Shown: positions 32,801 through 35,603 of the stretch, one piece after another | Numbering within the stretch: the stretch's first letter is position 1 | How the letters are laid out: each line of letters opens with the position of its first letter | From: Lentisphaerota bacterium | Lineage (GTDB): Bacteria > Verrucomicrobiota > Lentisphaeria > Victivallales > Victivallaceae | Length of the DNA stretch: 64,000 bases | Assembly: GCA_015061865.1 (NCBI GenBank) | Contig: SUVU01000001.1 | Coordinates: 62,001 to 126,000 of the forward strand | Direction of reading: 5' to 3' | Notes under the pieces: generated by a model | Databases searched by the model: none | Seen by the model: only the letters and a program-made list of their open reading frames with translations | Told to the model about the DNA's origin: nothing | Position numbers and translations under genes: made by a program

Positions 32801-32828
32801 TTGTAAAACTGTTTTTTTGTGCTATATT
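32801..32828 (+). promoter_or_regulatory. Putative promoter of the AIDA-repeat gene
   Basis: TTGTAA-N16-TATATT. Confidence 0.55.
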
Positions 32829-32862
32829 TCAAGTGAGTATATAAATACGAAAGGAATAGGGC

Positions 32863-35547
32863 ATGAATTACAAAATTTACGATGGTATCGTCAGTTCCGG
32901 CATCGTTTTGGATTATAATGAAACAATGCATATCTCCAGCGGCGGCGTGGCGAGCAATACCACCGTCAATTCCGGCGGCGATATGTACGTTTATGACGGC
33001 GGCGTGGCGAACAGTACCACCGTCAATAGCAGTGGCTATATGTCCATCTCCAGCGGCGGTGTGGCGAATAATACCACCGTTGAAGACTATGGCGACATGA
33101 CCATCTGGAGCGGCGGCGTGGCAAGCAATACCACCGCCAATTCCAGTGGCTATATGACCATCTGGAGCGGCGGCGTGGCGAACGATACCACCGTCAATTC
33201 CAGGGGCGGCATATACATCGGAAACGGCGGCGTGGCGAATGATACGTTTGTTGACGATGGCTGGATGGAGATCGGAAGCGGCGGCAGTGCGCTTAATGTC
33301 AACTGGACACCGTGTGTTGGGGATGTATACATTAATGATGGCGCTGTTGTCACCTTTACCAGCAAATATTCCGGGGTATATTTCGGATCGGATAATCAAC
33401 TGCTTTATCAGACAACTGTTATGAAAGGGGAAAACGTATCCCGTCCAAATTGCAGTATGTTTGTAATGAGCGGCGGCGTGGCAAGCAATACCACCGTCAG
33501 TTGGTATGGCAAAATGTTCATCTGGAGCGGCGGCGTGGCGAATGATACCACCGTCAATTCCGGGGGCGGAGTGGACATCGCCAGTGGCGGCGTGGCGAAT
33601 GATACCACCGTCAATTCCAGTGGCTATATGGGCATCTGGAGCGGCGGCGTGGCGAATGATACCACCGTCAATTCCGGGGGCGACATGATCATCGACAACG
33701 GCGGCGTGGCGAATGATACGTTTGTTGACGATGGCTGGATGGGGATCGGACGCGGCGCCGTGGCGACCAATACCACCGTCAATTCCGGGGGCGACATGAT
33801 CATCGACAACGGCGGCGTGTCGAATGATACGTTTGTTGACGATGGCTGGATGGGGATCGGAAGCGGCGGCGTGGCGAGCAATACCACCGTCAATTCCGGT
33901 GGCTACATGCGCATCTGCGGCGTGCCAAGCAATACCACCGTCAATTCCGGGGGCAAAATGACCATCTCCAGCGGCGGCGTACATCGCGGCAAATTGACGA
34001 TTAATGACGACGGGATTGTGTCCGCCAGCTACGGAGCAATTATAGACTTTACCGTAAAAGACCGGAAACCGGAAGATGATTATTTGATAAATAACTTGTC
34101 CAAGATTATATACTATGATTGGGAAAGTCCAAAGTATAAGATCACGGTCGCTCCGAATCAGGCCGCAGGAATCTATAAACTTGCTCTGGGTGCAAGCAGT
34201 TTCACCGGCAGTGTTACTGTTGGCGACGGCACAATAAACTATGGCCGTGTAGCGGTCAATGGTGCAGATTTGACTTACGGCGGAAATATCTATTCACTTG
34301 ATCAAGCTGGCGGTGATTTGACTTTGACCATATACATTGATACCACTCCGCCGGTCAAACCGGTCGCTAAAGCGAATATCACCGTCGCTACTAATAAAAA
34401 TGTTACCGTGACGGCAAGTTTCAGCAGCGATTCCGCAATAAAACAGTATTCGCTGGATAAAAAGTCTTGGAAGACGTATACTTCCGGTATCGTGATGAAA
34501 AATAATGGCTCTCTTTACTTCCGGGGACGGGATAAAGCGGGAAATTACTCTGCCATCACCACTTATACGGTGAAAAATATTGACCGTGCGGCTCCGGTGA
34601 TCAGCAAACTTACTGCAACATCAAAAAATTTGGTCATCACCGCCAAAGACAACGTGAAAATTGCAAAATATGTAGTAACGGTCGGTAAAAAAACGCAAAC
34701 CATCACCGGTAATACCCTCGCATTGGGCAACTTGCCGATCGGCAAAGTTGCAGTTTCAGTGGTCGCTTACGATGCGGCGGGCAATAAGAGTTCGGCGAAA
34801 AAAATCAACCTCACCATTAAAGACACCACGCCGCCGTCAAAAGTCGTCACGCTGAAAAATCCTGTCGTCACCGGCAAGTACAAAGGTACATTCAGCTGGT
34901 CGGCGGCAAAGGATAATTCCGGCAAGATCGCCCGGTATGAAATCCAGCTGGACAACGGCAAAATTTACAAATCGACTAAAACGGGCGTTTCCATCAGCAA
35001 ACTGACGGTCGGCAAACACACTTACCGTGTCCGTGCCATTGACAAAAACAAAAACGTCAGCGCCTGGAGCAGCCGCAAGTCTTTCACGGTCAAAGATATG
35101 ACTGCGCCGTCAAACGTTGCGGTAAAAGTGAAAGTTTCCGGCAACAACGCCGTTTTGACGTGGAAAAAGCCCAAAGACAATGTCGGCGTGACCAAATACA
35201 TTTTGAAATACGGCAACAAAACCGTCACTCTCAAAGGTTCAGTCACGAAATACACCATCACCGGCTTGAATAAAGGCAATTACTCCTATTCGATGGTCGC
35301 CGTCGATGCCGCCAACAACAAAAGCAAAGCGAAAACCGGCAAAATCACCATCAAACAGCCGCTGGCTCCGGCACGTGCCGCCGAAGCACTCTACGCTGCC
35401 GACTTTGCCGCCCCGGAAGCACTCTTTGCCCCGCAGACGGACATCCTTGCTTACTGCAATGACCTGCAATCCGGTGCGGTGATCGCCTCGACCGATGATT
35501 TGACTTCTGCTGAACAGCACAAAGATAAATTCATGCAGTTGGCGTAA
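32863..35547 (+). CDS. AIDA-repeat surface/secreted protein with Fn3-like domains and a distinct C-terminal tail
   Basis: Multiple SGGVA(S/N)(N/D)TTVNSGG repeats, then domains such as VTGKYKGTFSWSAAKDNSGKIARYEIQLDN and TPPSKVV/TAPSNVA linkers; C-terminus ...TDILAYCNDLQSGAVIASTDDLTSAEQHKDKFMQLA. Confidence 0.85.
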   Translation: MNYKIYDGIVSSGIVLDYNETMHISSGGVASNTTVNSGGDMYVYDGGVANSTTVNSSGYMSISSGGVANNTTVEDYGDMTIWSGGVASNTTANSSGYMTIWSGGVANDTTVNSRGGIYIGNGGVANDTFVDDGWMEIGSGGSALNVNWTPCVGDVYINDGAVVTFTSKYSGVYFGSDNQLLYQTTVMKGENVSRPNCSMFVMSGGVASNTTVSWYGKMFIWSGGVANDTTVNSGGGVDIASGGVANDTTVNSSGYMGIWSGGVANDTTVNSGGDMIIDNGGVANDTFVDDGWMGIGRGAVATNTTVNSGGDMIIDNGGVSNDTFVDDGWMGIGSGGVASNTTVNSGGYMRICGVPSNTTVNSGGKMTISSGGVHRGKLTINDDGIVSASYGAIIDFTVKDRKPEDDYLINNLSKIIYYDWESPKYKITVAPNQAAGIYKLALGASSFTGSVTVGDGTINYGRVAVNGADLTYGGNIYSLDQAGGDLTLTIYIDTTPPVKPVAKANITVATNKNVTVTASFSSDSAIKQYSLDKKSWKTYTSGIVMKNNGSLYFRGRDKAGNYSAITTYTVKNIDRAAPVISKLTATSKNLVITAKDNVKIAKYVVTVGKKTQTITGNTLALGNLPIGKVAVSVVAYDAAGNKSSAKKINLTIKDTTPPSKVVTLKNPVVTGKYKGTFSWSAAKDNSGKIARYEIQLDNGKIYKSTKTGVSISKLTVGKHTYRVRAIDKNKNVSAWSSRKSFTVKDMTAPSNVAVKVKVSGNNAVLTWKKPKDNVGVTKYILKYGNKTVTLKGSVTKYTITGLNKGNYSYSMVAVDAANNKSKAKTGKITIKQPLAPARAAEALYAADFAAPEALFAPQTDILAYCNDLQSGAVIASTDDLTSAEQHKDKFMQLA
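32935..33985 (+). repeat. Degenerate tandem coding repeats (AIDA-type)
   Basis: Recurring GGCGGCGTGGCGAA(T/C)GATACCACCGTCAATTCC units in frame within ORF 32863..35547. Confidence 0.9.
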
Positions 35548-35560
35548 ATCATACAAGTAA

Positions 35561-35603
35561 AAAGTGATTGGGATGAAAAATTTCTCCCAATCACTTTTTT
35601 TAT
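35561..35603 (+). terminator. Intrinsic terminator of the AIDA-repeat gene
   Basis: AAAGTGATTGGGA...TCCCAATCACTTT stem, then a T-run. Confidence 0.88.

Follow-up and report, generated by a model that had tools for sequence, protein, structure and literature searches.

A leaderless AIDA-repeat protein of a Lentisphaerota bacterium as a candidate substrate of type I secretion

The window analysed here is a stretch of 64,000 nucleotides from a Lentisphaerota bacterium (GenBank assembly GCA_015061865.1, contig SUVU01000001.1, positions 62,001 to 126,000 of the forward strand). At 32863..35547 (+), it carries an open reading frame for a leaderless 894-aa protein composed of AIDA repeats and fn3 domains, as recognised from the sequence together with Pfam and NCBIfam matches. 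Reading frame, coordinates and both quoted termini given in an earlier sequence-only reading of this DNA proved to be exact. A glgB-like gene precedes the ATG at a distance of only 91 bp. Upstream of the ATG, a promoter-like site (TTGTAA-16-TATATT, 32801..32828, +) can be proposed, which is a weak candidate defined by consensus match only (9/12). The ATG at 32863 is well supported as the presumed start by a Shine-Dalgarno-like AAAGGAA just 5' of it (32850..32856, +) and by an in-frame TAG two codons upstream (32857-32859, +). This TAG leaves no room for an in-frame signal peptide further upstream and rules out an alternative start encoding one; as a hydrophobic leader is also absent, the claim that no signal peptide is visible is borne out. 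Behind the gene, a hairpin followed by a T run (AAAAGTGATTGGGA...TCCCAATCACTTTTTT, 35559..35600, +) forms a probable terminator, which was read by eye since its loop is too long for the terminator scan.

The protein begins directly in AIDA repeats. Its leaderless N-terminal cap MNYKIYDGIVSSGIVLDYNETMHISSGG (32863..32946, +) has the pattern M..Y.I..G..SSG..L....M.ISSGG, which recurs at the start of many AIDA proteins of relatives. The strand-loop-strand repeats (TIGR04415/PF16168) extend over 32863..33990 (+) and are of the type that serves as substrate of Aah/TibC O-heptosyltransferases; matches are far beyond chance both for Pfam AIDA (PF16168; 10 stretches, 2.6e-32) and for NCBIfam TIGR04415 (12 stretches, 3.8e-54). 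Between the repeats and the C-terminal tail, at about residues 500-832, lie Ig/fn3-type β-sandwich domains (34363..35358, +, boundaries approximate), which were assigned by means of Pfam, AlphaFold2 and Foldseek and are missing from the sequence-only reading. For the last 322 residues (573-894), AlphaFold2 gives a model with three β-sandwiches and a 60-residue tail at pLDDT <50, and the best Foldseek matches of this model are tandem FnIII domains. An autotransporter barrel (PF03797) was rejected, as the window protein has no such Pfam match and the model contains none; the earlier statement that the C-terminus lacks a β-barrel thus holds, Ig sandwiches and a low-confidence tail being found instead. 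The window protein likewise has no RTX repeats, and its genome gave no PF00353 match. A type IX (Por) substrate was also considered and rejected, since the window protein has neither a signal peptide nor a sorting-domain match in Pfam or NCBIfam.

The partly helical 60-aa tail (35365..35544, +) is a candidate type I secretion signal and is shared with further proteins of the window's own genome (G000; C24, C37, C81, C83, C91, C105, C127 and C155 denote its contigs). A search with the tail retrieved two more intact ORFs (best E 3.9e-19 and 2.7e-17), a 5'-cut ORF (best E 1.6e-5) and a 3' fragment at a contig end (2.4e-7). The C105 protein (875 aa) has an N-terminal Peptidase_C39_2-like domain and no AIDA repeats, the C24 protein (1137 aa) is AIDA-like, C37 encodes an fn3 protein whose 5' end is lost at the contig end, and the C83 copy is a 3' fragment at the contig start. 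N-terminal modules hence vary among the tail proteins, and the fn3 block preceding the tail is homologous wherever upstream sequence exists. Since contigs C37, C81, C83 and C155 of this metagenome-assembled genome (MAG) break off within AIDA/fn3/tail or heptosyltransferase genes, more tail proteins probably exist than were counted. At the DNA level, the window gene and its C105 paralogue (L009) are about 95% identical up to the end of the fn3 block and over the greater part of the tail, and unrelated from position 35470 onwards; this abrupt loss of identity inside the tail (35470-35544 versus L009) marks an exchange of the last 25 codons between paralogues. Two types of last 25 residues occur (...KDKFMQLA and ...KKEERSLLAALS), each shared by at least two proteins and both ending in a hydrophobic residue plus A/S. 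Together with the abrupt break, this identifies the last 25 codons (35470..35544, +) as an exchangeable end. Alternatively, the shared tail might merely have come along when the fn3 block was recently duplicated or underwent gene conversion, and be functionless by itself, given that every copy with upstream sequence follows homologous fn3 DNA, at about 95% identity in the window/C105 pair. This explanation appears clearly unlikely, however, as homology breaks off at 35470, the two end types are spread over four or five proteins with the same hydrophobic+A/S finish, and unrelated C-terminal modules of other species end alike.

Outside its own genome, the tail could not be traced: 59 relatives yielded nothing at E<=0.01, so that a sequence family across relatives was rejected, and a profile scan of genome contigs with fn3 plus tail returned mostly generic fn3 proteins from unrelated phyla, which is uninformative for the tail. 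The check for a shared tail proposed in the sequence-only reading hence gave a mixed result, positive for the paralogues of the own genome and negative for the 59 relatives. As the tail sequence was not found there, complete AIDA-repeat genes were fetched from the relatives and read directly. Counting the own genome, the resulting set contains 48 distinct ORFs, 46 with intact N-terminus and 36 with complete C-terminus, and about 45 leaderless AIDA-repeat proteins come from relatives. A clear signal peptide was found in none of the 46 intact N-termini (maximum hydropathy 2.0, median 1.1, compared with a median of 2.3 for lipoprotein-like proteins; the measure is crude, its ranges overlap, and it is not SignalP). 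Nor was a PF03797 barrel present among the 25 families listed for the 36 complete C-termini, families outside these 25 having a single member each with E above 2.7e-5. In place of a barrel, FG-GAP, CARDB, RTX or fn3 modules are found. A terminal [LIVMF][AS] occurs in 28/36 AIDA C-termini versus 25/574 other ORFs of the same loci, a statistic inflated by repeated counting of homologous proteins within species and set against a background that includes spurious ORFs; about nine unrelated types of C-terminal module contribute to these ends. The recurring layout in relatives therefore consists of repeats without leader, a variable C-terminal module and a terminal hydrophobic+A/S, and the leaderless, barrel-less AIDA-repeat architecture is conserved across the genus and beyond. 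AIDA gene expansions are very large in genomes G022, G033, G008 and G001 (70-95 repeat matches per genome); there, the proteins of one species tend to share their type of C-terminal module, which differs from that of other species.

The known setting of AIDA repeats and their heptosyltransferase is type V secretion. The window protein could accordingly be seen as a degenerate or fragmentary autotransporter that lost signal peptide, barrel and export altogether, in line with the occurrence of AIDA repeats in autotransporter passengers and with the matches of NF033176 and NF033177 to its repeats. The long intact frame, the leaderless layout of about 46 AIDA proteins, often in many copies per genome, and the diverse C-terminal modules and RTX repeats in relatives argue against such decay, since parallel repeated loss with frames maintained is implausible; this reading is considered very improbable.

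RTX repeats are a hallmark of type I secretion. In relatives, RTX nonapeptide repeats are carried by AIDA proteins at L197:2252-8227 and L349:2995-5136 (leaderless, G008) as well as by an AIDA protein at L198 (G020), the N-terminus of which is cut. Additionally, an AIDA gene lies directly behind an ABC-HlyD gene pair at L238 (G008), and in the single-contig genome G036 (L194) ABC-HlyD starts 15 bp behind the gene of a leaderless repeat protein of 1911 aa, which Pfam does not recognise as AIDA. Checking for ABC, HlyD and TolC genes, as the sequence-only reading had proposed, was positive in the own genome, but on contigs other than that of the window: ABC and HlyD genes are adjacent on C127, and a TolC-like lipoprotein is encoded on C91. 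The ABC protein is HlyB-like and full length (854 aa, L098:7859-10420), with HlyB as best PDB match (9e-146) and 637 bits against TIGR01846, under the cut-off of 725.55. HlyD scores 286.6 bits against TIGR01843 (cut-off 208.65), and the TolC-like protein 128.5 against TIGR01844, under the cut-off of 225.15. Two tandem C39-like domains precede the HlyB core of the ABC protein. The second one has Ser at the position of the catalytic Cys (QSG for DCG) and Lys at that of the His (NNKY) and, with both catalytic residues absent, matches the non-cleaving HlyB type; the first resembles the second by profile comparison (probability 90.8, E 1.2e-6, one comparison). Full-length orthologues of 55-86% identity are spread through the larger part of the genus and reach into several further families of its order; in those listed, Ser, Thr or Arg-type residues take the place of the C39 Cys. 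An orthologue is present in 24/24 AIDA-repeat genomes among the 60 examined. Orthologues L201-L229, from across the genus and from further families of the order, likewise carry two tandem inactive C39-like domains rather than one. Judged from linkage in relatives, ABC and HlyD of C127 and the TolC-like protein are presumably cognate with the window protein, the TolC-like protein being the putative partner channel.

The family of the heptosyltransferases Aah and TibC (BAHT) shows a similar association. TibC transfers heptose to serines of AIDA-I/TibA repeats (PMC4358343). Enzymes matching TIGR04414 (Aah/TibC) were found in 21/24 AIDA-repeat genomes, G025 and G035 being counted from fragments, versus 4/36 others. 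At L349, L289, L183 and L186, BAHT genes precede large repeat genes (leaderless AIDA genes or others) by 10-18 bp, with an AIDA+RTX gene following after 10 bp at L349 and an AIDA gene after 17 bp at L289. A BAHT gene is also located directly behind ABC-HlyD at L244 (G024) and close behind the ABC gene at L282 (G031). Hence, leaderless AIDA/RTX proteins, type I secretion system (T1SS) and BAHT are genetically linked in relatives. Co-occurrence across genomes is given little weight, because 34 of the 60 genomes belong to one genus; within this genus, p is 0.0004 for AIDA/BAHT and 0.06 for AIDA/ABC, ABC/BAHT is not significant, and all of these values are confounded by kinship. The own genome has a complete BAHT gene among prepilin-like genes (C37:54342-55466; TIGR04414 387 bits, TibC 9.7e-93), whose product keeps the four Fe-finger cysteines (CxxC..C..C) in alignment with TibC and has Glu at the position of the catalytic Asp110 of TibC. 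In a second BAHT (C155) the Asp is kept, but the gene is cut by the contig end. The AIDA repeats of the window protein are probably O-heptosylated.

The proposal of the sequence-only reading that export is non-Sec and type I-like with a C-terminal signal remains the best-supported one, given the lack of leader and barrel and the T1SS linkage in relatives, and type I secretion, not type V, is the likely export route of the window protein. Several points speak against it: the T1SS genes are located away from the window gene in this MAG, RTX is absent, 59 relatives yielded no copy of the tail sequence, the ABC and TolC-like proteins score under their cut-offs, and the complete BAHT of the own genome has Glu for Asp110. 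Some of these points could favour another, unfamiliar leaderless route, with the tail serving for anchoring or dimerisation and the T1SS handling other substrates: no T1SS gene adjoins the window gene, the own genome lacks RTX, the tail sequence is lineage-specific, and the genomes encode further ABC exporters. Such a route is nevertheless rather unlikely, considering that the same ABC-HlyD orthologues are linked to leaderless AIDA or other repeat proteins in relatives, that RTX occurs on AIDA proteins there, and that AIDA and ABC co-occur in 24/24 cases. For type I export, the following sequence of steps can be envisaged. Before export, an Aah/TibC-family BAHT would O-heptosylate the AIDA repeats while they are still in the cytoplasm. 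One-step export would then proceed via the HlyB-type ABC transporter with its inactive C39-like domains, the HlyD adaptor and a TolC-type outer-membrane channel, the C-terminal ~60 aa acting as uncleaved export signal, and the end product would be a cell-surface or secreted adhesin-type repeat protein. Within this scheme, the tail is the candidate type I signal, and the window protein presumably functions as adhesin. The full picture of type I export combined with heptosylation of an AIDA-repeat adhesin has about an even chance of being correct.

With the self-associating autotransporters AIDA-I/Ag43/TibA (type Va), which have Aah/TibC as their heptosyltransferase (TibC: PMC4358343), the window protein shares the AIDA strand-loop-strand repeats, and its genome likewise encodes a BAHT-family heptosyltransferase with Fe-finger cysteines. 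In contrast to these autotransporters, it has neither signal peptide nor 12-strand barrel (PF03797), and its genome encodes a T1SS, a system found in linkage with AIDA or BAHT genes in relatives. RTX adhesins and toxins of the HlyA family (PMC3034196) resemble it in lacking a signal peptide, in the ~60-aa C-terminal tail and in the set of HlyB with inactive C39-like domain, HlyD and TolC-like protein, and AIDA proteins of sister species carry RTX; the window protein, however, combines AIDA repeats with fn3 domains without RTX, and its ABC protein has two tandem C39-like domains. Large non-RTX type I adhesins such as SiiE likewise have β-sandwich domains beside a C-terminal signal (a candidate signal here), with SiiE Ig domains appearing at Foldseek rank 50, a resemblance at fold level only. 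For the combination of AIDA/BAHT with type I secretion, no paper was found by full-text search, whose coverage mostly excludes subscription journals.

Taken further, the lineage may have switched its whole repertoire of heptosylated AIDA adhesins, and the cytoplasmic heptosyltransferase with it, from autotransport to type I export. A HlyB-type transporter whose two tandem C39-like domains are inactive would provide the passage, and species-specific, exchangeable C-terminal modules would serve as export tails; for this scenario the chances stand roughly equal either way. If a whole bacterial group exports such proteins by type I secretion, folding and glycosylation of the β-helix could be uncoupled from the autotransporter barrel. 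A β-helix that is already folded and carries sugars would be an awkward cargo for an ABC channel, and the order of glycosylation, folding and export is therefore directly testable. Automatic annotation, for instance as 'AIDA repeat-containing autotransporter', can also mispredict the secretion route.

Leaderless proteins with related N-termini (...PxxEYMYG...) are found in two species at L009:6397-9024 and L285:5914-8559. That of L009 is a C39-like peptidase by Pfam at its N-terminus and ends with the fn3 tail of the own genome, unlike L285:5914-8559, the C-terminal end of which resembles RTX-type ends. On C81 of the own genome, an array of short SKQASKQ... repeats (L012:5770-6300) is located just 5' of another leaderless AIDA gene. 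Finally, a second class of Aah/TibC-like heptosyltransferases lies beside prepilin-type genes at L280:8277-9638 (C37 of the own genome), where Glu takes the position of TibC Asp110, with similar genes at L290:8532-9887 and L291:7007-8362.
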